From positions 1,024,501 to 1,088,500 of the forward strand of contig NZ_CP136921.1 in the NCBI RefSeq assembly GCF_033100095.1: a stretch of DNA of 64,000 nucleotides. The letters are read 5' to 3'. Below are positions 34,485 to 46,984 of this stretch, in pieces. Below the pieces are notes generated by a model. The model saw only the letters and a program-made list of their open reading frames with translations. It ran no database searches and had not been told where the DNA came from. Each line of letters begins with the position of its first letter. Position 1 is the first letter of the stretch. Source of the stretch: Diaphorobacter limosus (GTDB taxonomy: Bacteria > Pseudomonadota > Gammaproteobacteria > Burkholderiales > Burkholderiaceae_C). The translations under genes and the position numbers were made by a program.

Positions 34485-35570
34485 TCAGCTACGCGGCGTG
34501 GCAGCCGCGCCCAGGCTGATGCTGCTGCCGGGGTGCATCTTCTCGACCCAGGAGCGCACCCGCTCGGCATCGCCCAGGCGGCTGAACTTGCCCGCCGAAT
34601 CCAGGAACACCATGATCAGCTTGCGCCCCGCCACCTCGGCCTGCATCACCAGGCAGCGACCGGCCTCGGAGATGTAGCCGGTCTTCTGCAGACCGATGTC
34701 CCAGGTCGGGCTCTTCACCAGGCGGTTGGTATTGTTGTATTGCAGCACGCGGCTACCCACGGTGACCTCGTGCCCCGGGGAGGTGGACAGCTCGCGCAGC
34801 AGTGAGTCGCCATGTGCCACGTTGACCAGCGTGGCCAGGTCATGGGCGCTGGACTGGTTGCTGCTGGACAGGCCGGTGGGCTCGACAAAGCGCGATTCCG
34901 TCATGCCCAGCAGCCGGGCCTTGGCATTCATGCGCTGCACGAAGGCCGTCAGGCCGCCGGGATAGGTGCGCCCCAGCGCGTGCGCGGCGCGGTTCTCGCT
35001 GGACATCAAGGCCAGGTGCAACAGTTCTCCGCGCGACAGCGTGGTGCCCACGGTCAGGCGCGACCCGCTGCCCTTTTCGGTGTCCACATCGTCCTGCGTG
35101 ATGGTGATGGGCTCGTCCATGGGCAGGCGCGCCTCGGAAACGAGCAGGCCGGTCATCAGCTTGGTCAGCGAGGCAATCGGCAGCACCGCATGGTCGTTCT
35201 TGCTCAGCAACACCTCCTTGGTGTCCTGATCGATCACCAGCGCCACGCTGGACTTCAGATCCAGCGGGTCACTGACCGAATGCAGTCCCGCCAGCTGACC
35301 AAAGGACAGGCGTGCGGGCTCGGCCGCCATGCGCACCGGCGCCTTGGCGCTACGCGCTGCCATGCGCGTGGACTTGACCGAACCGGCCTTGCGCTGCGCC
35401 TTGGCGCTCGATTTCACGGCCGCACGCTTGGCCACCACCTGCGACTGTTTCTTGGAGGCAGCGGGTTTGCGTTCGGCGGCCTGCGCACCGGGAAATGCCA
35501 GGGACAGGCCCAGGGCTGCAATGGCCAGAACTTGGGAAAAACGGGTTGCGATGCGAAAACGGGCGTGCAT
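34485..35570 (-). CDS. pbpG: D-alanyl-D-alanine endopeptidase (PBP7-type)
   Basis: Periplasmic penicillin-binding protein of the S11 peptidase family that cleaves peptidoglycan cross-links. 361 residues: signal peptide (cleavage near PGAQA-AERK), a Lys/Ala-rich linker of about 50 residues, then the catalytic domain with SxxK (ASLTKLM), SxN (SSENRAAH) and KTG (LQKTGYISEAG). The start at 35570 (MHARFRIATRF) gives the proper signal peptide. The basic linker is longer than in E. coli PBP7 and may bind the wall or DNA-like polyanions; that is inference. Confidence 0.92.
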   Translation of the reverse strand: MHARFRIATRFSQVLAIAALGLSLAFPGAQAAERKPAASKKQSQVVAKRAAVKSSAKAQRKAGSVKSTRMAARSAKAPVRMAAEPARLSFGQLAGLHSVSDPLDLKSSVALVIDQDTKEVLLSKNDHAVLPIASLTKLMTGLLVSEARLPMDEPITITQDDVDTEKGSGSRLTVGTTLSRGELLHLALMSSENRAAHALGRTYPGGLTAFVQRMNAKARLLGMTESRFVEPTGLSSSNQSSAHDLATLVNVAHGDSLLRELSTSPGHEVTVGSRVLQYNNTNRLVKSPTWDIGLQKTGYISEAGRCLVMQAEVAGRKLIMVFLDSAGKFSRLGDAERVRSWVEKMHPGSSISLGAAATPRS

Positions 35571-35592
35571 CAGAGGCTCCGAACGTAAGAAA

Positions 35593-35610
35593 CTGTACAC
35601 CAGTGTACAG
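35593..35610. promoter_or_regulatory. Perfect palindrome upstream of pbpG
   Basis: CTGTACAC-CA-GTGTACAG, 8-bp arms, 23 bp before the pbpG start. It could be an operator. It resembles a LexA box but the spacing (CTGT-N10-ACAG) is 2 bp longer than the SOS consensus. Confidence 0.35.
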
Positions 35611-35611
35611 A

Positions 35612-35656
35612 ATCAAAAAAAGCCGCGCAAGATCAATATCTTGCGCGACTCTTTTA
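35612..35656 (-). terminator. Rho-independent terminator after leuA
   Basis: A 10-bp stem CGCGCAAGAT / ATCTTGCGCG with a CAAT loop, followed on the minus strand by GGCTTTTTTT. The plus-strand side also has a short T run (CTTTT), so it may act in both directions. Confidence 0.85.
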
Positions 35657-35688
35657 AAAAGAACCTGAATTATATGGGTAACCAGGCT

Positions 35689-37230
35689 TTAACCCTGGGC
35701 TGCCACACGCTCGGCTTTGCTTTGCAGCTTGTTCAGGGCACTCAGGTAGGCCTTGGCCGAGGCCACGACGATGTCCGGATCCGCGCCCACGCCATTGACG
35801 ATGCGACCGGTGTTCTGCAGGCGCACCGTGACCTCGCCCTGGCTTTCGGTGTTGCCGCTGATCGCCGTCACCGAATACAGCACCATTTCCGCGCCACTTT
35901 TCACCTGGCTCTCGATGGCCTTGAGCGAGGCATCGACCGGGCCGTTGCCGTCCGATGTGCCACGCACCTCGCGGCCATCGATGGTGAAGACGATCTCGGC
36001 ATGCGGCATCTCGCCGGTCTCGCTGCGCTGGGCCAGGGAGATGAAACCGTATTGCTCTTTCTCCGCCGTCACGCTTTCGTCGCCGACCAGGGCCAGGATG
36101 TCCTCATCAAAGATCTCGCTCTTGCGGTCGGCCAGATCCTTGAACTTGGCGAAGGCCGCCATGATCTCGCCCTCGGATTCGAGCACCACGCCCAGCTCCT
36201 GTAGCCGCTGCTTGAACGCCGTGCGCCCGGACAGCTTGCCCAGCACGATCTTGTTGGCGCTCCAGCCCACGTCCTCGGCGCGCATGATCTCGTAGGTGTC
36301 GCGCGCCTTGAGCACGCCGTCCTGGTGGATGCCGCTGGCGTGGGCAAAGGCATTCGCCCCCACCACCGCCTTGTTGGGCTGCACCACGAAGCCGGTGGTG
36401 GTGCTGACCATCCGGCTGGCCGGCACGATCTGCGAGGTGTCTATGCCCACGTCCAGGCCAAAGTAGTCGCGGCGCGTCTTCACGGCCATGACGATTTCCT
36501 CGAGCGAGCAATTGCCCGCGCGCTCACCCAGGCCGTTGATGGTGCATTCGACCTGGCGCGCGCCGCCGATCTTCACGCCCGCCAGGCTGTTGGCCACGGC
36601 CATGCCCAGGTCGTTGTGGCAATGCACGCTCCAGATGGCCTTGTCGCTGTTGGGCACCTTCTCGCGCAGCGTCTTGATGAAGTTGCCGTACAGCTCGGGA
36701 ATGGCATAGCCCACGGTGTCGGGGATGTTGATGGTGGTCGCGCCGTCGTTGATCACCGCCTCGCACACGCGCGCCAGGAAGTCGATCTCGCTGCGGTAGC
36801 CGTCCTCGGCGCTGAACTCGATGTCGCCCATCAGGTTGCGCGCAAAGCGCACCGCCAGCTTCGACTGCTCCAGCACCTCCTCGGGCGTCATGCGCAGCTT
36901 TTTCTCCATGTGCAGCGGGCTGGTGGCGATGAAGGTGTGGATGCGGCCGCGCTCGGCGTCCCTGAGCGCCTCGGCGGCGCGCGCGATGTCGCGGTCGTTG
37001 GCGCGCGAGAGCGAGCAGATGGTCGAGTCCTTGATGGCACGCGCAATCGCCTGCACGCACTCGAAGTCGCCATTGCTGCTGGCGGCAAAGCCGGCCTCGA
37101 TCACGTCCACCTTCAGGCGTTCGAGCTGGCGCGCGATGCGCAGCTTCTCGTCGCGCGTCATGCTGGCGCCGGGCGACTGCTCGCCGTCGCGCAAGGTGGT
37201 GTCGAAGATGATGAGTTTGTCGCTGCTCAT
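35689..37230 (-). CDS. leuA: 2-isopropylmalate synthase (standard form)
   Basis: First committed step of leucine synthesis: acetyl-CoA plus 2-ketoisovalerate. 513 residues, the usual length of the short LeuA type. N-terminal TIM barrel with [19 protein letters not shown] and the metal site [15 protein letters not shown]-terminal LeuA dimer regulatory domain (about 390-505) for leucine feedback. It lies 30 bp downstream of leuA2 in the same direction, so two isopropylmalate synthases are made from one transcript. Confidence 0.93.
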
Positions 37231-37260
37231 GGCTGCCTCTGTCGTGGTGAATATTCGATA

Positions 37261-38928
37261 TTAAGCGGCTACCACCTGCATCTGCGGTGCACGCTGCAGA
37301 CCGCTGAGGATGGCGCGCATGGAGGCGGAGACGATGTTGGCGTCCATGCCCACGCCGTACACCGTTTGGCGCTCGTCGATGCGCATCTCCACATAGGCCA
37401 CGGCCTGGGCGTTGGCGCCCTCGCCTATGGCGTGCTCTGTGTAATCGAGCACCCGCAGCTGGCGATCGAGCGCCGTCGAAAGGGCCTGCACGAAGGCATC
37501 GATGGGTCCTGTGCCCTCGCCTTCCAAGTCCAAGATGTCGCCCTGCCACTGCACCGTGGCCGCCAGCTGCATGCGGCCGCCATCGTCCTGCATGCGATAG
37601 GCGGGCGCGGCCACGGCTTGGATCTGATATTCGCTCTGGAACAGCGCCCACAGATCGGCCGCGGTCAGCTCCTTGCCGCTGGCGTCCATTTCGCGCTGCA
37701 CGGCGGCGCTGAATTCGATCTGCAAGCGGCGCGGCAACTGCAGGCCGTATTCGCTCTCCAGCAGGTAGGCGATGCCGCCCTTGCCCGACTGGCTGTTGAC
37801 GCGGATCACGGCCTCGTAGCTGCGGCCCAGGTCCTTGGGGTCGATGGGCAGATAGGGCATGTCCCAGATGTCGCCTTCCTTGCGCTCGGCAAAGGCCTTC
37901 TTGATCGCGTCCTGGTGCGAGCCCGAGAACGAGGTGTAGACCAGGTCGCCAACATAGGGGTGGCGCGGATGCACGGGCAACTGGTTGCAGTATTCCACCG
38001 TGCTGCGGATGGCGTCGATGTCGGAAAAATCCAGCCCCGGGTGCACGCCCTGGGTGTACATGTTGAGGGCCACGTTTACTACGTCAAGGTTACCGGTGCG
38101 CTCGCCGTTGCCGAACAAGCAGCCCTCCAGCCGGTCGGCGCCCGCCATCAGCGCCAGTTCGGCCGTGGCCGTGCCGGTGCCGCGGTCATTGTGCGGGTGC
38201 ACCGACAGCACCACGCTGTCACGGCGCGCGATGTGGCGGTGCGTCCACTCCACCATGTCGGCAAAGATGTTGGGCGTGGAATGCTCGACCGTGGTGGGCA
38301 GGTTGATGATGCATTTCTTCTCGGGCGTGGGCTGCCAGACCGCGGTCACCGCATCGATCACGCGCTTGGAAAATGCCAGCTCGGTGTCCGAATACATCTC
38401 GGGCGAATACTCGAAGGTCCAGTCGGTCGCCGGCTGGCGTGCGGCCAAGTCCTGGAACATCTGCGCGTGGCTCACGGCCAGCTCCACGATCTCGTCCTCG
38501 CTCATGCCCAGCACCACGCGGCGCATCACCGGCGCGGTGGCGTTGTACAGGTGCACGATGGCGCGCGGCGCCCCGGCAAGCGCCTCAAACGTGCGGCGGA
38601 TCAGCGGTTCGCGCGCCTGGGTCAGCACCTGGATGGTGACGTCGTCGGGAATGCGGTCTTCCTCGATGAGCTTGCGCACGAAGTCAAACTCGACCTGCGA
38701 GGCGGAGGGAAATCCGACCTCGATCTCCTTGAAGCCGATCTTCACCAGCTGCTCGAACATGCGCATCTTGCGCGCAATGTCCATGGGCTCGATCAGCGCC
38801 TGATTGCCGTCGCGCAAATCCACGCTGCACCAGATGGGGGCCTGGGTGATCACCGCGTCGGGCCAGCGGCGATCGGCCAGGCGCACGGGCGCGAAGGGGC
38901 GGTATTTGCTGGCGGGGTTGTGCAACAT
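37261..38928 (-). CDS. leuA: 2-isopropylmalate synthase (long LeuA2 type)
   Basis: Second isopropylmalate synthase of the long type: 555 residues from [14 protein letters not shown]. Catalytic barrel with [18 protein letters not shown] and [21 protein letters not shown]-terminal regulatory domain from about 430. An ATG at 38946 would add six residues; neither start has a strong ribosome site. It is preceded by a leucine leader peptide and intrinsic terminator, which indicates attenuation. Having both types side by side suggests different leucine sensitivity or substrate preference. Confidence 0.92.
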
Positions 38929-38983
38929 GGACGGACTCGCTTTCATGGAACAGGAAAAGATGAAACCCGGTTCCAGCGACTTG

Positions 38984-39023
38984 CACAAACAAAAACGGCC
39001 CGTCGCTGGTGCTCACGGGCCGT
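38984..39023 (-). terminator. Attenuator upstream of leuA2
   Basis: On the minus strand a perfect 9-bp stem ACGGCCCGT / ACGGGCCGT with an 11-base loop is followed by TTTTTGTTTG. It lies between the leader peptide (stop at 39053) and leuA2 (start at 38928), the arrangement of a transcription attenuator. Confidence 0.85.
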
Positions 39024-39052
39024 GGAAGTAGTGTGTGTACGCGCGCGCTACT

Positions 39053-39106
39053 CTATGCCTGCCCGTGGGACAAGTTCTGTAGTAGTGCTAGCGACAGGAA
39101 ATGCAT
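39053..39106 (-). CDS. leuL: Leucine leader peptide (17 residues)
   Basis: Encodes MHFLSLALLQNLSHGQA. Five of 17 codons are Leu (CTG, CTA, CTA, CTA, TTG). Three are CTA, which is very rare in this G/C-rich genome, so the ribosome should stall when charged leucyl-tRNA for that codon runs short. An intrinsic terminator follows 30 bp later and leuA2 after that. It begins 12 bp beyond the end of the lysR-type gene, so its promoter must lie within that gene or upstream of it. The gene name is by analogy with E. coli leuL. Confidence 0.8.
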   Translation of the reverse strand: MHFLSLALLQNLSHGQA

Positions 39107-39117
39107 AGCGACAGACT

Positions 39118-40020
39118 CTAGCACAAACGCGAGGACTGCAATTGATCCTCCAGAAATGTGCGGAATTCCTGCGCCGCCGGCGACAGCGCCCTGCCCCGGC
39201 GCGTGAAGACCCAGAAGCTGCGCTCCACCACCGGGTCGCCCACCGGGCGCATGACCAGGCCGAACTGCTCGACCAGCGTGCGCGCATAGGGCATGCACAG
39301 CGTGATACCCAGGCCCGCACGCGCCAGCGCCAGCGCCGTGGTCATATAGGTCACCTGCATGAAGGCCTCCTTGTGCATGTCGCGCGCGGCCTCGCCCACG
39401 TCGCTCACCAGCAGCTCGGTGAACTGGCCCTGCAGCGTGATCAGCGACTGGCCGGACAGGTCTGGCCACAGCAGCTTCTTGCGCCGCGCCAGGGCATGGG
39501 TGGGCGGCATCACGGCCATGAAGGGCAGGCTGAACAGCTGCTCAGCGGCGATGTCTGAATTGGCCTCGCGCTCCGGGCCTATGCCGATGTCCACCTCGCC
39601 GGAGAACACGCGCGCCATCACGCTCTCGACCGCGCAATCGACCAGGCGCAGGCTCACGCCCGGGTACTGGGCGCGAAAGCCCGCCATCAGCTCGGGCAGC
39701 AGCGTGCAGGCCAGCAGCTGCGGCACGGCGACGCGCACCGTGCCGCGCTGCAAATCCTTGAGGTTGCCGACCTCGCTGACCACGCCGTCCAGGTCGTGCA
39801 GGATTTTCTCGATCTGCGGGTACAGCTCGCGCCCGGTGTCTGACAGGCGCAGGCGGCGCGTGCTGCGGTCGAACAGGCGCAGGCCCAGGGTCGATTCCAG
39901 CTCCTTGATCAGGCCGCTGAGCGCCGACTGGGTGATGAACAAGCGCTCTGCCGCCAGCGTGAAGCTGCCGGTATCGGCCACGGCCACGAAGGCGCGCAAC
40001 TGGCGCAGCGTCACATTCAT
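39118..40020 (-). CDS. LysR-family transcriptional regulator
   Basis: 300 residues. N-terminal HTH (about 1-60, RQLRAFVAVADTGSFTLAAE and ITQSALSGLIKELE), then the LysR substrate-binding domain (about 90-295). It is divergent from the aromatic-degradation cluster across a 106-bp A/T-rich gap and is the likely activator of that cluster, responding to the substrate or an intermediate. The leucine leader begins 12 bp after its stop codon on the same strand. Confidence 0.9.
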   Translation of the reverse strand: MNVTLRQLRAFVAVADTGSFTLAAERLFITQSALSGLIKELESTLGLRLFDRSTRRLRLSDTGRELYPQIEKILHDLDGVVSEVGNLKDLQRGTVRVAVPQLLACTLLPELMAGFRAQYPGVSLRLVDCAVESVMARVFSGEVDIGIGPEREANSDIAAEQLFSLPFMAVMPPTHALARRKKLLWPDLSGQSLITLQGQFTELLVSDVGEAARDMHKEAFMQVTYMTTALALARAGLGITLCMPYARTLVEQFGLVMRPVGDPVVERSFWVFTRRGRALSPAAQEFRTFLEDQLQSSRLC

Positions 40021-40126: not shown

Positions 40127-41092
40127 ATGACCGACAAAAAATTTGCCTCCCAGGCCGATCTGGAAGAAAAGAAGATCAGCTGGGAAAAACTCAGCGACAA
40201 CGCCTACGCCTACACGGCCGAGGGCGACCCGAACACCGGCGTCATCATCGGCGATGACGGCTGCATGATCATCGACGCCACCGCCACCCCGGTGGCCGCG
40301 CAGGGCGTGATCGCCAAGGTCCGCGAGATCACCGACAAGCCCATCAAGTACGTGGTGCTGACGCATTACCACGCCGTGCGCGTGCTGGGTGCCTCGGGTT
40401 ACAAAACGGAAGGCCTGGAGCAGATCATCGCCAGCCGCGACACCTACGACCTGATCGTCGAGCGCGGCCAGCAGGACATGGATTCCGAGATCGGCCGCTT
40501 CCCGCGCCTGTTCCAGGCCGTGGAGAGCGTGCCCGGCCTGACCTGGCCGACCATGACCTTCGAGGGCGAGATGGCCCTGTGGCTGGGCGAGCTGGAGGTG
40601 CGCATCAAGCAGGTGGGCCGCGGCCACACCAAGGGCGACGCCATCGTCTACATCCCCAGCCAGAACATCTGCTTCTCGGGCGACCTGGTCGAGGCCGACG
40701 CCGCCTGCTACACCGGCGATGCCTACCTGGCCGACTGGCCGCAAACCCTGGACAACCTGGCGGCGATGAAGTTCGACAAGCTCATCCCCGGCCGCGGCCC
40801 GGCGCTGATGACGCCAGCGGACGTGCAAAAGGGCCTGGCCTATACCCGCGACTTTGTCTCCACGCTCTACAAGAGTGCGCAAGAGGCCGTCGCCCAAGGG
40901 ATGGACTTGAACGCCACCATGAAGCACACGCGCCAGGCCATGGACCCGAAGTTTGGCCATGTCTTCATCTACGAGCACTGCCTGCCGTTTGACGTGACGC
41001 GAGCGCACGACGAGGCCAGCGGCATCCGCGACCCGCGCATCTGGACGGCCGAGCGCGACCAGCAGATGTGGCATGCGCTGCAACAAGCCTAA
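40127..41092 (+). CDS. MBL-fold protein with altered metal-binding motif
   Basis: 321 residues with the metallo-beta-lactamase fold order. The usual HxHxDH motif reads HYHAVR (His80, His82, then Val84-Arg85), so the Asp and third His are missing. Later conserved positions (GRGHTKGDAIV, FSGDLVEADA) remain, but the C-terminal His is replaced in PGRGPALM. The metal site is therefore reduced or rebuilt. The start at 40127 has CAGGAG upstream. First gene of the LysR-controlled cluster, it may hydrolyse an ester or thioester intermediate, or have a binding role. Confidence 0.8.
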   Translation: MTDKKFASQADLEEKKISWEKLSDNAYAYTAEGDPNTGVIIGDDGCMIIDATATPVAAQGVIAKVREITDKPIKYVVLTHYHAVRVLGASGYKTEGLEQIIASRDTYDLIVERGQQDMDSEIGRFPRLFQAVESVPGLTWPTMTFEGEMALWLGELEVRIKQVGRGHTKGDAIVYIPSQNICFSGDLVEADAACYTGDAYLADWPQTLDNLAAMKFDKLIPGRGPALMTPADVQKGLAYTRDFVSTLYKSAQEAVAQGMDLNATMKHTRQAMDPKFGHVFIYEHCLPFDVTRAHDEASGIRDPRIWTAERDQQMWHALQQA

Positions 41093-41100
41093 ATAAAAAC

Positions 41101-41144
41101 AATAGCTGTCAGCGCTTACCAGATAAGCGCTAGAGCCATATTTC
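41101..41144 (+). repeat. Dispersed ~45-bp repeat, copy 6
   Basis: ATAGCTGTCAGCGCTTACC, then AGATAAGCGCTAGAGCC. AGCGCTTA / TAAGCGCT form a clear hairpin. It lies between the MBL gene and the FAD monooxygenase gene, inside the catabolic cluster. Confidence 0.7.
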
Positions 41145-41170
41145 ACCATCTTTGAGGATTCGAGAGACAC

Positions 41171-42835
41171 ATGCTGAAGACCTACACCTATCCCAAGTTC
41201 GACTATGTGCGCCCACCCGAGCTGGTGGAGCAGCACAGCGGCCACTACCCCGTGGTCATCGTCGGCGCCGGCCCGGTGGGCCTGTCCATGGCCATTGACC
41301 TGGCGGCCCAGGGGCAAAAAGTGCTGCTGCTGGACAACGACGACACCGTGTCCATAGGCTCGCGCGGCGTGTGCTATGCCAAGCGCACGCTGGAGGTTCT
41401 AGACCGCATGGACTGCGGCAGCCCCTGCGTGGACAAGGGCATGTCCTGGAACGTGGGCCGCACCTTCTTTGGCGAGGGCGAGGTCTTCAACTTCAACCTG
41501 CGCCCGCAGGACGGCCACAACCGCCCCGGCATGGTGAACCTGCAGCAGTACTACCTGGAGGACTACCTGGTGCAGCGCGCGCGCCAGTTGCCCAACCTGG
41601 AGATGCGCTTCAAGAACAACGTCATCAGCGTGGAGCAGGACGACAAACAGGCCACCGTGCGCGTGGAGACGCCCGACGGCGCCTACACCCTGACCACTGA
41701 TTGGCTGGTGGCCGCCGACGGCGCGCGCTCGCCGATCCGCAACATGCTGGGCCTGGAGATCGACGGCAAGATCTTCATGGACCGCTTCCTGATCGCCGAC
41801 GTCATCATGAAGGCCGACTATCCCGCAGAGCGCTGGTTCTGGTTCGACCCGCCCTTCCATCCCAACCAGTCGGTGCTCTTGCACAAGCAGGCCGACAACG
41901 TCTGGCGCATCGACTTCCAGCTCGGCTGGGACGCCGACCCCGAGGCCGAGAAGAAGCCCGAGAAGGTCATCCCGCGCATCAAGGCCATGCTTGGCGACGA
42001 GCGCGAATTCGAGCTCGAATGGGTCAGCGTCTACACCTTCCAGTGCCGGCGCATGGGCCAGTTCAACCACAACCGCGTGCTGTTCGTGGGCGATGCGGCG
42101 CACCAGGTCTCGCCCTTTGGCGCACGCGGCGCCAACAGCGGCATCCAGGACTCGGACAACCTGGCCTGGAAGCTCAAGCTCGTCATCGACGGCAAGGCGC
42201 CCGCGTCGCTGCTGGACAGCTACAGCAGCGAGCGCTGCTACGCCGCCGACGAGAACATCATGAACTCCACGCGCTCCACCGACTTCATCACGCCCAAGAG
42301 CAAGACCAGCAAGGCCTTTCGTAACGCCGTGCTGGAGCTGGCGCAGGACTACCCGTTTGCCCGCGCCCTGGTCAACTCCGGCCGCCTGTCGGTGCCCAGC
42401 TGGCTCGTCGATTCGCCGCTGAACACCCCCGACGAAGACGGCTTTGCCGGCAACATGGTGCCCGGCGCGCCCATGGACGACGCCCCCGTCACCGGCGGCA
42501 AGACCGCCTGGCTGCTGGGCGACATGGACACGCGCTTTCACCTGCTGCACTACGTGGAAGACGCCGGCGCGCTGAGCGCGCAGCAGGCCCAGGCCCTGGC
42601 CGGCCTGGCCGACCACCCCATAGCCGTGCACGCCATCGTCGTGGCCCAGCGCGGCACCGCCCCCGCCGGCCTGGCCACGCTGATCGACGCCCAGGGCGCG
42701 CTGCGCGAGCGCTACGACCTGCAGCCCGGCACCAGCTACCTGCTGCGCCCGGACCAGCATGTGGCTGCGCGCTGGCGTCAGCTTGATGCCGCCAAGGTGC
42801 GCGCCGCCGTGAACCGCGCCACCGGCAACGTCTAA
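41171..42835 (+). CDS. FAD-dependent aromatic-ring monooxygenase (PheA/TfdB/MhpA family)
   Basis: Flavoprotein hydroxylase of 554 residues. The FAD motif VIVGAGPVGLSMAIDLAAQG is near residue 28, the second FAD/NAD(P)H motif is near residue 170 (LVAADGARSPIR), and GDAAHQVSPFGARGANSGIQ is near residue 312. A thioredoxin-like C-terminal domain follows. The family adds a hydroxyl to a phenolic ring using NAD(P)H and O2. With maleyl-isomerase and fumaryl-hydrolase genes downstream, I infer that it makes a hydroquinone-type (para-diol) substrate. The exact substrate is unknown. Confidence 0.88.
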   Translation: MLKTYTYPKFDYVRPPELVEQHSGHYPVVIVGAGPVGLSMAIDLAAQGQKVLLLDNDDTVSIGSRGVCYAKRTLEVLDRMDCGSPCVDKGMSWNVGRTFFGEGEVFNFNLRPQDGHNRPGMVNLQQYYLEDYLVQRARQLPNLEMRFKNNVISVEQDDKQATVRVETPDGAYTLTTDWLVAADGARSPIRNMLGLEIDGKIFMDRFLIADVIMKADYPAERWFWFDPPFHPNQSVLLHKQADNVWRIDFQLGWDADPEAEKKPEKVIPRIKAMLGDEREFELEWVSVYTFQCRRMGQFNHNRVLFVGDAAHQVSPFGARGANSGIQDSDNLAWKLKLVIDGKAPASLLDSYSSERCYAADENIMNSTRSTDFITPKSKTSKAFRNAVLELAQDYPFARALVNSGRLSVPSWLVDSPLNTPDEDGFAGNMVPGAPMDDAPVTGGKTAWLLGDMDTRFHLLHYVEDAGALSAQQAQALAGLADHPIAVHAIVVAQRGTAPAGLATLIDAQGALRERYDLQPGTSYLLRPDQHVAARWRQLDAAKVRAAVNRATGNV

Positions 42836-42852
42836 AACCAAAGGAGACAACC

Positions 42853-43083
42853 ATGAGCCTGAACACCCAGCCCAACCTGCGCGAGCCCGGCAAGCGCTAC
42901 TTCCAGGCCTATTCGCCCGGCGACGACTTCTACGAGGCCCTGATCGACACCCACCAGGGCCTGTCGGACGAGCAAAGCGCCGCCCTGAACGCGCGCCTGA
43001 TCCTGCTGCTGTCCAACCATATTGGCGACATCAGCGTGCTACGCGAGGCCCTGGCCATCGCCCGCAAACCCTTCAACAATTGA
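42853..43083 (+). CDS. DUF2783 domain protein (small partner of the monooxygenase)
   Basis: 76 residues, no signal or membrane segment, mostly helical. Segments such as DDFYEALIDTHQGLSDEQS and ILLLSNHIGDISVLREALA are those of DUF2783. This family occurs next to FAD monooxygenases of this type, so it may be a small accessory subunit. It sits 17 bp after the monooxygenase with AAAGGAGACA upstream, and 26 bp before the VOC gene. Confidence 0.75.
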   Translation: MSLNTQPNLREPGKRYFQAYSPGDDFYEALIDTHQGLSDEQSAALNARLILLLSNHIGDISVLREALAIARKPFNN

Positions 43084-43109
43084 CACCGCTAGCCCCCAAG
43101 GAGACAACC

Positions 43110-43664
43110 ATGGCCTTTCTCAACGGCGTACACCATGTCGCATACCGCTGCAAGAACGCAAAGCAGACCGTGGAGTGGTACCAGAAGTACCTCGATGCCA
43201 ACTTCATCCTCGCCATCGCCGAGAACGAAGTGCCCTCCACCAAGGAGCCCGATCCGTACATGCACATCTTCATCGACATCGGCGGCGGCAACATCCTGGC
43301 CTTCTTCGAGCTGCCCACCAAGCCGGAGATGATCGCCCCCTCGGACGCCAACACGCCGTCGTGGACGCAGCACCTGGCGCTGAAGGTGGATTCGGTCGAA
43401 ACCATGATGAAGGTCAAGGCCAAGATGGAGGCCGACGGCATCGAGGTGATTGGCCCCACCAACCACACCATCTTCCAGTCGATCTACTTTCGCGACCCCT
43501 CGGGCCACCGCCTGGAGCTGGCGGCCAATACTTCCACGCCGCAGATGGACAAGGCGCTGGACGATGTGAAGTGGGACATGCTCAACGAGTGGGATCGCAC
43601 CAAGCAGGCCCCCACCCACGCCCGCTGGATGCACGACGGCTCGGGCCGCGTAGGCCCGCACTGA
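43110..43664 (+). CDS. VOC-family protein, candidate ring-cleavage dioxygenase
   Basis: 184 residues with two beta-alpha-beta-beta-beta modules of the vicinal-oxygen-chelate fold. Likely metal ligands are His in GVHHVAYRC, His in WTQHLALKVDS and Glu in GHRLELAANT. Start at 43110 with AAGGAGACAACC upstream. No cupin-type gentisate or homogentisate dioxygenase is in the cluster, so this protein is the best candidate for opening the ring between the hydroxylase and the maleyl isomerase. That role is inference; it could instead be a glyoxalase-like isomerase. Confidence 0.75.
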   Translation: MAFLNGVHHVAYRCKNAKQTVEWYQKYLDANFILAIAENEVPSTKEPDPYMHIFIDIGGGNILAFFELPTKPEMIAPSDANTPSWTQHLALKVDSVETMMKVKAKMEADGIEVIGPTNHTIFQSIYFRDPSGHRLELAANTSTPQMDKALDDVKWDMLNEWDRTKQAPTHARWMHDGSGRVGPH

Positions 43665-43829
43665 TGGCCTGCGGCTGACGCCGCGGCAAGCCCCCTACCC
43701 CTACCCAACCACCCGCGCGCGCGCCCAGGCGCCGCGTGGCGGGCGCTGCTGCGCCCCGCTTCACCCCCCACCCCAAAGAGACAAGCCGCCGCATCAGCGT
43801 TCGGCGCTATAAAAAAAGGAGATTTCTCC

Positions 43830-45209
43830 ATGTCCCACGCACACAGCGCAGCAGCCGTAGACATAGGCCGCACGCTAGACCACGGCCCGTTTTCCAGCCT
43901 GCAGAAAATGGTGGTGCTGATGGCCGCACTGTCCATCATCCTGGACGGCTTTGACGGTCAGCTCATAGGCTTTGCCATTCCCGTCATGATGAAGGAATGG
44001 GGCATAGCGCGCAGCGCCTTTGCTCCGGCCGTGGCCACCGGCCTGGTCGGCATGGCGATAGGCAGCGCCTTCGCCGGCTACATGGCCGACCGCATCGGGC
44101 GCCGGCTGGTGATCGCCGCCAGCGTGGCGCTGTTTGGCGCCACCACCATCGCCATCGGCTTTGCCCCAAACATCGACGCCATCACCGTGCTGCGCTTCAT
44201 CGCCGGCCTGGGCATTGGCGGCGCCCTGCCCAGCGCCTCCACGCTGACGGCGGAATTCACGCCTTTGAAGTACCGCACCGTGGCCGTGACCGGCACCATC
44301 GTCAGCTACCCGCTGGGCGGCATGCTGGCCGGACTGTTCGCCAGCTTTGTGCTGCCCACTTTGGGCTGGCGCGCCATGTTCTGGATCGGCGGCGCGCTGC
44401 CGCTGGCCTACAGCTTCTTCCTGCTGGCACGCCTGCCCGAATCACCGCGCCTGATGGCGCGCCACAGCGCCCAGTGGCCCCAGCTGCGCACCCTGCTGGC
44501 GCGCATGCAGCGCCCCACGGCGGCAGACGCGCCCTTTGTCGATGCCGTGGAGCAGGCGGCCGGCCAGAAGCAGAACGCCGGTTTTGGCGCCCTGTTCAAG
44601 GACGGCCTGGCGCGCGACACCCTGGCCATCTGGATGGGCTTCTTCATGGTCATGCTGGCCTCGTACAGCGCCTTCAGCTGGCTGCCATCGATGCTCACCG
44701 CCGAGGGGCTGCCGGTCTCCATGGCCAGCTCGGGCCTGACGGCCTACAACCTGGGCGGCGTGCTGGGCGCCCTGGGCTGCGCCTGGGCCATGTCGCGCTT
44801 TGGCTCGCGCTGGCCACTGGCGCTGGCCTGCGCCGGGGCCGCGGCCAGCGCCCTGGCACTCAAGGGCGTGGACTTCCACCAGGACGCCAGCCTGCTGATG
44901 CTGGGCCTGGGCGTGCACGGCATGTTCGTCAACGGCGTGCAGGCGCCCATGTATGCGCTGTGCGCCCATGTCTACGCCACCCATATCCGCGCCACCGGTA
45001 CCGCGGCTGGCCTGGCCTTTGGTCGCCTGGGCGCCATCCTGAGCTCGTTCGCCGGCGCCGCCATCATCACCAGCAATGGCGCGCAGGGCTATCTGTCGCT
45101 GCTGGGCTATGCCATGCTTGCGGCACTCGTGGCGCTATTCCTGGTCAAGCACCATATCCGCGGTCGACGCGCCGCCGACACGCCCAGCACCAACGCCAAG
45201 GCGGCCTGA
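43830..45209 (+). CDS. MFS transporter, aromatic acid:H+ symporter type
   Basis: 459 residues, 12 predicted membrane helices. The AAHS-type motif DGFDGQLIGFAIPVMMKEWG is in helix 1, GYMADRIGRR between helices 2 and 3, and GALPSASTLTAEFTP in helix 4/5. AAHS carriers take up benzoate-like or hydroxyaromatic acids, so the cluster's substrate is probably an aromatic carboxylic acid. The gene has AAAAAAAGGAGA as ribosome site. The 165-bp gap before it has no other feature I recognise. Confidence 0.88.
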   Translation: MSHAHSAAAVDIGRTLDHGPFSSLQKMVVLMAALSIILDGFDGQLIGFAIPVMMKEWGIARSAFAPAVATGLVGMAIGSAFAGYMADRIGRRLVIAASVALFGATTIAIGFAPNIDAITVLRFIAGLGIGGALPSASTLTAEFTPLKYRTVAVTGTIVSYPLGGMLAGLFASFVLPTLGWRAMFWIGGALPLAYSFFLLARLPESPRLMARHSAQWPQLRTLLARMQRPTAADAPFVDAVEQAAGQKQNAGFGALFKDGLARDTLAIWMGFFMVMLASYSAFSWLPSMLTAEGLPVSMASSGLTAYNLGGVLGALGCAWAMSRFGSRWPLALACAGAAASALALKGVDFHQDASLLMLGLGVHGMFVNGVQAPMYALCAHVYATHIRATGTAAGLAFGRLGAILSSFAGAAIITSNGAQGYLSLLGYAMLAALVALFLVKHHIRGRRAADTPSTNAKAA

Positions 45210-45246
45210 ACGCCGCACCCGACATCACAAGGAAAGGACTCACATC

Positions 45247-46260
45247 ATGAAACTCGCAACCCTCCAGCAAGGCGGCCGTGACGGCACCCTGGTGGTCGTC
45301 AGCCGTGACCTGAAGCGCTGCCGCGCCGTACCCGCCATCGCCCGCACCATGCTGGCCGCCATGGACGACTGGGCCACCGTCGAGGCGCAGCTGCGCCAGG
45401 TCTACGAGGCGCTGAACAGCGGCGCCATCGAGGGCGAGGCCTTCGACCAGAACGCCTGCCACTCGCCCCTGCCGCGCACCTGGCAATGGGCCGACGGCTC
45501 GGCCTATATCAACCATGTGGAGCTGGTGCGCAAGGCACGCAACGCCGAGGTGCCCGAGAGCTTCTACACCGACCCGCTGATGTACCAGGGCGGCAGCGAC
45601 GGCTTCATCCCGCCGCGCGGCAAGGTGCTGGCCCAGGAAGCCTGGGGCATAGATTTCGAGGCCGAGGTGACGGTGGTCACCGGCGACGTTCCCCAGGGCG
45701 CCACGCCCGAGCAGGCCGCCAAGGCAATCCGCCTGGTGATGCTGGTCAACGACGTGTCGCTGCGCAACCTGATCCCGGCCGAGCTGGCCAAGGGCTTCGG
45801 CTTCTTCCAGAGCAAGCCCGCCAGCGCCTTCAGCCCCGTGGCCGTCACGCCCGACGAACTGGGCGAGGCGTGGAAGGACGCCAAGGTGCACCTGCCCCTG
45901 GTCGTGCACCTGAACGAGCAGCTGTTTGGCAAGCCCAACGCCGGCGTGGACATGACGTTTGACTTTGGCCAGCTGGTGGCCCATGTGGCCAAGACACGCA
46001 CACTCTGCGCCGGCTCCATCGTGGGCTCGGGCACGGTGAGCAACAAGCAGGGCGACCTGTGGGGCTCGTCGATCGCCAACGGCGGCATGGGCTACTGCTG
46101 CCTGGCCGAGGTGCGCACCTACGAGACGATAGAGCAGGGCAAGCCCGCCACCCCCTTCATGAAACATGGCGACAGGGTGCGCATAGAAATGTTCGACGGC
46201 CAGGGCCAGAGCATCTTTGGCCAGATTGAGAACGAGGTGGACACGCATGGCGCCGCCTGA
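45247..46260 (+). CDS. Fumarylacetoacetate hydrolase family protein
   Basis: 337 residues, the length of the fuller FahA-type enzymes. The N-terminal domain leads to the hydrolase fold with EVPESFYTDPLMYQGGSDGF, a metal-binding DFEAEVTVVTGDV segment and SIVGSGTVSNKQG. The family hydrolyses the C-C bond of fumarylacetoacetate or fumarylpyruvate to fumarate plus acetoacetate or pyruvate. Start at 45247 (MKLATLQQGG). Its 3' end overlaps the next gene by 14 bp, so isomerase and hydrolase are coupled. Confidence 0.9.
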   Translation: MKLATLQQGGRDGTLVVVSRDLKRCRAVPAIARTMLAAMDDWATVEAQLRQVYEALNSGAIEGEAFDQNACHSPLPRTWQWADGSAYINHVELVRKARNAEVPESFYTDPLMYQGGSDGFIPPRGKVLAQEAWGIDFEAEVTVVTGDVPQGATPEQAAKAIRLVMLVNDVSLRNLIPAELAKGFGFFQSKPASAFSPVAVTPDELGEAWKDAKVHLPLVVHLNEQLFGKPNAGVDMTFDFGQLVAHVAKTRTLCAGSIVGSGTVSNKQGDLWGSSIANGGMGYCCLAEVRTYETIEQGKPATPFMKHGDRVRIEMFDGQGQSIFGQIENEVDTHGAA

Positions 46261-46984
46261 GCTCGCAACCCTGCCCGAGCGGCCGGCCACGCCCGCCGGC
46301 GCCAGCGCGCACCAGGCGGGTGAGCGCGCCCTGCCCCGGCTGTATTCGTACTTCCGCAGCTCCGCGGCCTACCGCGTGCGCATTGCCCTGGCGCTCAAGG
46401 GCCTGGCCTACGAAACCGTCCCGGTGCATCTGGTCAAGAATGGCGGCCAGCAACACGCCAGCGGCTACCGCAGCGCCAACCCGCAGGGGCTGGTCCCGGC
46501 ATTGCAACCCGCCGTGGGCGGCCCGGTGCTGGCGCAGTCGCTGGCCATCATGGAATACCTTGACGAGGTACACCCCCAGCCCGCCCTGCTGCCCGCCGAT
46601 GCCCTGGGGCGCTCGCGCGTGCGGGCGCTGGCCCAAATGGTGGCCTGCGAGATCCATCCGCTGAACAACCTGCGCGTGCTCCAGTACCTGACGCAGGAGC
46701 TGGGCGTGTCGGGCGCGCAAAAGGACGCCTGGTACGCCCATTGGGTGGCGCTGGGCCTGCAGGCCGTGGAGGACAGCCTGGCGCGCAGCCCGGACACCGG
46801 CCGCTTCTGCCATGGCGACACCCCGGGCCTGGCCGACTGCTGCCTGGTGCCCCAGGTGTTCAACGCCAGGCGCTTCAACTGCGCGCTCGATGCCTATCCC
46901 ACCATCACGCGCATCGTCGCTGCCTGCGAGCAACTGCCGGCCTTCCAACAAGCCGCGCCAAGCGCGCAGCCGGACGCCGAGTAA
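46247..46984 (+). CDS. Maleylacetoacetate / maleylpyruvate isomerase (zeta-class GST)
   Basis: Glutathione-dependent cis-trans isomerase acting before the hydrolase encoded upstream. 245 residues; the GST fold begins at RLYSYFRSSAAYRVRIALAL (residue ~31) with the SSAAYRVR glutathione-site motif of the zeta class, and NPQGLVPAL and the helical domain (QVFNARRFNCALDAYPT) follow. About 30 extra residues precede the fold; no later start codon fits. Last gene of the cluster, ending 6 bp from the convergent pssA. Confidence 0.9.
   Translation: MAPPELATLPERPATPAGASAHQAGERALPRLYSYFRSSAAYRVRIALALKGLAYETVPVHLVKNGGQQHASGYRSANPQGLVPALQPAVGGPVLAQSLAIMEYLDEVHPQPALLPADALGRSRVRALAQMVACEIHPLNNLRVLQYLTQELGVSGAQKDAWYAHWVALGLQAVEDSLARSPDTGRFCHGDTPGLADCCLVPQVFNARRFNCALDAYPTITRIVAACEQLPAFQQAAPSAQPDAE

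Follow-up and report, generated by a model that had tools for sequence, protein, structure and literature searches.

The locus described here raised the question of which enzyme opens the aromatic ring in a catabolic operon that encodes neither an HmgA-type homogentisate dioxygenase nor a gentisate dioxygenase. The window, a stretch of 64,000 nucleotides from Diaphorobacter limosus (G000:C1:1024501-1088500, in a genome of 4.10 Mb on a single contig), contains an operon of seven genes encoding an MBL-fold protein, an FAD-dependent aromatic hydroxylase, a DUF2783 protein, a VOC-fold protein, an MFS carrier, an FAH-family hydrolase and a zeta-class glutathione S-transferase (GST), with a divergent gene for a LysR-type regulator. 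All eight genes named in an original prediction made from the sequence were open frames at the positions and in the order given there, and their families were confirmed by Pfam and NCBIfam profile searches, the latter with curated cut-offs. The prediction also stated that the cluster lacked HmgA and cupin gentisate dioxygenase and that the VOC protein was the only candidate for para-diol cleavage, both of which held, and it suggested that the genes could form a distinct route for some unknown aromatic acid. This last proposal was rejected, as the context leads to homogentisate, most likely formed from 3-hydroxyphenylacetate, and to the usual isomerase and hydrolase. In other words, it is probably the dioxygenase that has been replaced and not the pathway, which would be a homogentisate route with a recently recognized alternative enzyme.

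It is highly likely that the products of this operon convert 3-hydroxyphenylacetate all the way to fumarate and acetoacetate, with the homogentisate ring opened by the VOC protein. The MFS carrier would import 3-hydroxyphenylacetate, and the flavoprotein and its DUF2783 partner, a pair of the MhaA/MhaB type, would hydroxylate it para to the hydroxyl group to give homogentisate. The VOC protein, a predicted mononuclear-metal enzyme with a 2-His-1-Glu site in which Fe(II) is expected, would then open the ring between C1 and C2. The maleylacetoacetate formed would be isomerised by the zeta-class GST, and the FAH-family protein would hydrolyse the product to fumarate and acetoacetate.

Whole-genome profile searches covered HmgA, gentisate dioxygenase, HppD, maiA and the VOC protein. 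HppD was found at 3213319-3214353 (366.3 bits, cut-off 277) adjoining a Biopterin_H aromatic amino acid hydroxylase, and the genome should therefore form homogentisate. The original prediction had suggested a search for HmgA or gentisate dioxygenase elsewhere in the genome as a check. No match to HmgA (TIGR01015, three candidates scored) or to gentisate 1,2-dioxygenase (TIGR02272, seven candidates scored) was present in the whole 4.1-Mb genome, and the idea of a hidden copy of either was rejected. Because homogentisate is made and no known cleaving enzyme was matched, another enzyme is needed, and because the homogentisate is made via HppD in the absence of an HmgA match, the VOC enzyme would be expected to serve tyrosine and phenylalanine breakdown as well. 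Two maiA-type genes scored above the cut-off. The second (G000:C1:863079-863735) was set aside: it is near polyhydroxyalkanoate synthase and thiolase genes, and its six neighbouring frames contained no ring-cleavage gene.

The closest solved structure to the VOC protein was PDB 9u42, released 2025-07-23 and titled 'Homogentisate 1,2-Dioxygenase from Acinetobacter', with 54-55% identity over about 170 residues and the same fold. The ligands of the 2-His-1-Glu site in the window protein were H8 (or H9), H88 and E136. These residues, together with H119 and Y126, were invariant in 122 aligned rows and likewise in a separate alignment of 74 rows, in agreement with the His/His/Glu ligands originally predicted, and the His/His/Glu and His/Tyr positions coincided with those of 9u42. 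The roles of these residues, as metal ligands and as a second-shell His (H119) and Tyr (Y126), are presumed from comparison with catechol 2,3-dioxygenase. Thus, the protein agrees in sequence, fold and metal site with a homogentisate 1,2-dioxygenase of the 9u42 type, and it also has the genomic links of one, with FAH and maiA genes in the operon and a matching HppD/HmgA profile (described below). The window protein had no match above cut-off to any NCBIfam model and no match to TIGR01015, and those of the 120 homologs listed that bore a name in their source were called 'VOC family protein', 'glyoxalase' or a 'lactoylglutathione lyase'. A single-sequence fold prediction had a predicted local distance difference test score (pLDDT) of 41.7, too low for use.

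HmgA has a cupin-type fold. The VOC protein would share with HmgA (TIGR01015) the proposed reaction and the downstream steps, while the folds are unrelated, and the two would be a clean case of two unrelated folds carrying out one reaction in otherwise similar operons. Cleavage of para-diols is known in the VOC superfamily from the (chloro)hydroquinone dioxygenases LinE and PcpA, but these are larger, two-domain proteins and their hydroquinone substrates lack the acetate side chain.

The distribution of the two dioxygenases was compared across a class-wide sample of 369 genomes, drawn evenly, in which close VOC homologs were those with E<1e-60 and weak HmgA-like matches were counted as HmgA. 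HppD scored above the cut-off in 56 genomes, 44 with an HmgA match and 12 without. Close VOC homologs were found in eight of these 12 and in none of the 44 (Fisher p 3.5e-7, or 1.6e-6 with the D. limosus genome left out). The eight genomes belonged to six families; three were from one genus, so there were fewer independent events than genomes. In six of the eight, the VOC and HppD genes were 35 to 1408 bases apart. Both solutions were found within family f140 (VOC in G139, HmgA in G348) and within family f19 (VOC in G017, a weak HmgA-like match in G275). Among 200 genomes of the family, 63 had VOC only, 54 HmgA only, 56 neither and 27 both (Fisher p 0.009, odds ratio 0.44).

Gene context was compared in 80 related loci, some of which were cut by contig ends. 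The FAD enzyme, DUF2783 and VOC genes occurred together in 56 of these, and their order is therefore not due to chance; 10 loci had the FAD enzyme without DUF2783, and 14 had neither. No HmgA match was found in the flanks of any of the 80 loci. Six contained hppD: five of the 14 without the FAD enzyme and DUF2783, and one with both (L071). When the hppD label was mapped onto a tree of 97 VOC rows, five changes were required, two of them forced by well-supported branches, and one hppD-labelled group (L025, L060, L079, L080) joined the window's own clade. The Acinetobacter baumannii locus (L082) had the order fahA-maiA-VOC-IclR, with hppD, and Acinetobacter sp. NCu2D-2 had the order fahA-maiA-VOC-CoA transferase A/B-thiolase. 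Adjacent to the NCu2D-2 cluster (L156, 851-2742) were genes for two proteins that resemble MhaA and MhaB in size, an FAD monooxygenase (about 569 aa) and a hypothetical protein (about 61 aa).

These contexts bear on whether the operon instead encodes a gentisate route, from 3-hydroxybenzoate through gentisate to maleylpyruvate. Isomerases and hydrolases of the same classes serve gentisate routes too, but gentisate yields pyruvate and not acetoacetate. The CoA transferase and thiolase genes of NCu2D-2 fit acetoacetate as the end product and thus indicate homogentisate rather than gentisate. With the isomerase assigned to maiA by a curated model and relatives linked to hppD and to acetoacetate genes, the gentisate route was rejected as very improbable. 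Acetoacetate genes were absent from the six flanking frames scanned with NCBIfam in L006, L011, L017 and L057, which encoded a FadB/FadJ-like protein, carriers and one frame without a match.

Because the title of 9u42, the phylogenetic profile and the gene context agree, the VOC protein is very probably a para-diol dioxygenase, and it is the only ring-cleavage candidate within the operon, as first proposed. Alternatively, it could be an accessory enzyme whose substrate is, for instance, a quinone or lactone by-product, with the ring opened by an unrecognised dioxygenase elsewhere. Such a role would suit the loci in which HmgA and VOC share one operon (L130-L140 and L146) and the HmgA-only operons without VOC (L143, L144), and the searches of the D. 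limosus genome covered only the five families named above. The exclusive distribution in HppD-positive genomes, the title of 9u42, the intact extradiol-type site and a genome with no match to HmgA or gentisate dioxygenase argue otherwise, and an accessory role was considered improbable.

Several observations weigh against VOC-dependent cleavage of homogentisate in this operon. The function of 9u42 is taken from its title, and the structure contains Zn. In D. limosus, hppD is about 2 Mb distant from the operon. Both dioxygenases are encoded in 11 operons with the structure IclR / MBL-VOC-FAD enzyme-DUF2783-HmgA, followed in nine of the 11 by a FahA-like gene, and in one with the structure LysR / VOC-MFS-HmgA-FahA. 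Both were also present in 27 of the 200 family genomes and within 4 kb of 11 of the 150 DUF2783 places listed in the survey described below. In these genomes and loci, the VOC protein may therefore be redundant or serve another role; redundancy, a different affinity or a second VOC role are possible where both enzymes are kept. Four of the 12 genomes with HppD and without HmgA had no close VOC homolog (G107 and G224 had only a VOC protein of 40-41% identity, and G060 and G103 had none at E<=1e-20), so further solutions may exist. A complete genome of 2.0 Mb (G149, locus L093) had a close VOC homolog (53%) and no HppD match. Finally, the A. baumannii VOC homolog was guessed, in passages of PMC7646211 (2020), to lack dioxygenase activity, as an explanation for pigment.

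Two side observations concern these genomes: in G149 (L093) the close VOC gene adjoins a gene for an MhaA-like FAD enzyme (54%), and in L130 the frame separating DUF2783 from HmgA encodes a TctC receptor.

The upper part of the proposed route depends on the flavoprotein and its small partner. As described in passages of PMC3053370, the 3-hydroxyphenylacetate 6-hydroxylase of Pseudomonas putida U, which forms homogentisate, consists of MhaA, a flavoprotein of 566 aa, and MhaB, a coupling protein of 60 aa, and is called highly specific for 3-hydroxyphenylacetate. The same passages place counterparts in Paraburkholderia xenovorans LB400 directly upstream of hmgA1B1C1, with a role that was proposed and not shown. 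The window pair, of 554 aa and 76 aa and 17 bases apart, has the same order and similar sizes (566/560 aa for MhaA and 60 aa for MhaB), and as in the mhaAB-hmgABC cluster a large FAD enzyme and its small partner are encoded directly upstream of homogentisate genes (PMC3053370, in part). Ring cleavage in that cluster is by HmgA, whereas in the window it is predicted to be by the VOC protein, and an MBL gene leads the window operon. The window FAD enzyme and DUF2783 protein are thus most likely, by analogy, an MhaA/MhaB-type 3-hydroxyphenylacetate 6-hydroxylase. The likeness to the P. putida proteins was drawn by size, neighbourhood and description, a point against it.

In the annotated records L150-L153, DUF2783 came after the FAD enzyme. 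The FAD enzyme, DUF2783 and an MBL gene were found beside hmgA in L143 and L144 and, among the annotated records (L151-L153), in Sulfitobacter, on Roseomonas plasmids and in Sinorhizobium fredii, where the locus also holds maiA and acetoacetate-CoA ligase; in Sphaerotilus, these three genes were beside VOC. Neighbours within 4 kb were surveyed for 150 listed DUF2783 places in the 200 family genomes. A close VOC homolog only was found at 43, HmgA only at 37, both at 11 and neither at 59. In other words, 91 of the 150 were near a homogentisate dioxygenase or candidate for one, and 80 of these 91 had exactly one of the two.

A different reading keeps homogentisate cleavage by the VOC protein but gives the hydroxylase pair another phenol as substrate, for example a substituted 3-hydroxyphenylacetate, or 4-hydroxyphenylacetate with hydroxylation at position 1; the growth substrate would then differ. 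Near-identical operons bear different flavoproteins, and ten of the 80 loci have the FAD enzyme without DUF2783. In one locus (L003), the VOC protein was 98% identical to that of the window, the MFS carrier 90% and the FAHn2 protein 92%, yet the FAD enzyme was 33% identical and DUF2783 was absent, as though the upstream step had been swapped. The window, however, has an FAD enzyme and a small partner as described for the 3-hydroxyphenylacetate-specific MhaAB in the available part of PMC3053370, and another growth substrate was considered possible but rather doubtful.

A more distant VOC branch was within 4 kb of 25 of the 59 DUF2783 places without a close VOC homolog or HmgA. This second branch (37-46% identical), seen in L141, L142 and L096, has the same invariant residues, and in L141 and L142 it adjoins an FAD enzyme of 36-39% identity. 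No match to an isomerase or hydrolase was found near it in these two loci, and the branch may cleave another diol. A frame of 995 aa beside it in L141 was discounted as a pathway gene because it encodes valyl-tRNA synthetase. As a tentative generalization, somewhat short of probable, the unrelated VOC-fold enzyme would have repeatedly replaced HmgA in conserved 3-hydroxyphenylacetate and tyrosine operons of Burkholderiales and other Pseudomonadota, with some operons keeping both, and the sister branch of about 40% identity, which is accompanied by a separate FAD enzyme and DUF2783, would cleave a different para-diol.

The 9u42-type enzyme looks real and widespread. Genomes using it appear to lack tyrosine and homogentisate breakdown, and naming the family would close this annotation gap. 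No paper on 9u42 or on a VOC homogentisate dioxygenase was recognised in the open-access literature, the scope of the search. The finding bears on studies of pyomelanin in Acinetobacter (PMC7646211, PMC11945678, each in part). The A. baumannii homolog sits with hppD, fahA and maiA, whereas the window gene is in an MhaAB-type operon. According to passages of PMC7646211 (2020), the A. baumannii gene lies between hmgC and hmgR, and no hmgA homolog was found. In a pyomelanin-producing A. baumannii strain, 'hmgA' was disrupted by a transposon and its expression from a plasmid removed the pigment, though the gene meant by 'hmgA' is not identifiable from the passages available (PMC9431530). The part of PMC11945678 considered here gives a 633-bp 'hmgA' reference with a 14-base overlap with a 1308-bp 'hmgB'. 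This is the length of maiA in L082, which has an equal 14-base overlap with a 1308-bp fahA, and these are not the dimensions of the VOC gene; the name 'hmgA' in that part of the study is therefore unreliable.

Table 1. Genes of the window operon and its divergent regulator (window positions)
Gene product	Position	Strand	Profile match
LysR-type regulator, divergent from operon	39118-40020	-	LysR_substrate 1.5e-43, HTH_1 3.9e-23
MBL-fold protein	40127-41092	+	Lactamase_B 1.5e-13
FAD-dependent aromatic hydroxylase, MhaA-like, 554 aa	41171-42835	+	FAD_binding_3; PRK08132 851.9 bits, cut-off 416
DUF2783 protein, MhaB-like, 76 aa	42853-43083	+	DUF2783 4.5e-30
VOC-fold protein, 184 aa, proposed homogentisate 1,2-dioxygenase	43110-43664	+	Glyoxalase/dioxygenase family
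MFS carrier, aromatic acid/H+ symporter type	43830-45209	+	TIGR00895 3.6e-89, 299.5 bits, under cut-off 418.55
FAH-family protein, proposed fumarylacetoacetase	45247-46260	+	FAA_hydrolase 1.4e-35, FAA_hydro_N_2 2.2e-27
Zeta-class GST, maleylacetoacetate isomerase	46247-46984	+	TIGR01262 3.6e-89, 297.9 bits, cut-off 171.05

The seven operon genes (Table 1) are tightly packed, with spacings of 78, 17, 26, 165, 37 and -14 bases in order, the last being a 14-base overlap of the isomerase gene with the FAH gene. The FAH-family protein had no NCBIfam match above cut-off. The nearest named record was a metagenome-assembled genome labelled Alicycliphilus sp. (L002), in which the cluster proteins were 98-100% identical. 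The LysR protein was 76-99% identical at the equivalent place in L002, L003, L005, L011, L012, L016, L017 and L020.

The MBL gene travels with the FAD enzyme: it was present in 52 of the 56 loci with the FAD enzyme and DUF2783, in five of the 10 with the FAD enzyme alone, and in one of the 14 without the FAD enzyme. Metal site 1 was kept among 77 related sequences (H80 in 74, H82 in 76, H167 and D186 in all 77). MBL proteins usually have the motifs HxHxDH and GHG, but here the site-2 positions were replaced, giving HYHAVR (V84 in 76 of 77, R85 in 77 of 77) and GRG (R223 in 77 of 77).

Beyond the LysR gene, at 35329-39108, were two long plus-strand frames (291 and 927 aa) without a Pfam match, which may be real genes or antisense frames. 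A short inverted repeat, AGCGCTT-N6-TAAGCGCTAGAGC, was located between the MBL and FAD genes at 41111-41136; there were two exact copies genome-wide, whereas shuffling the window 100 times gave none.

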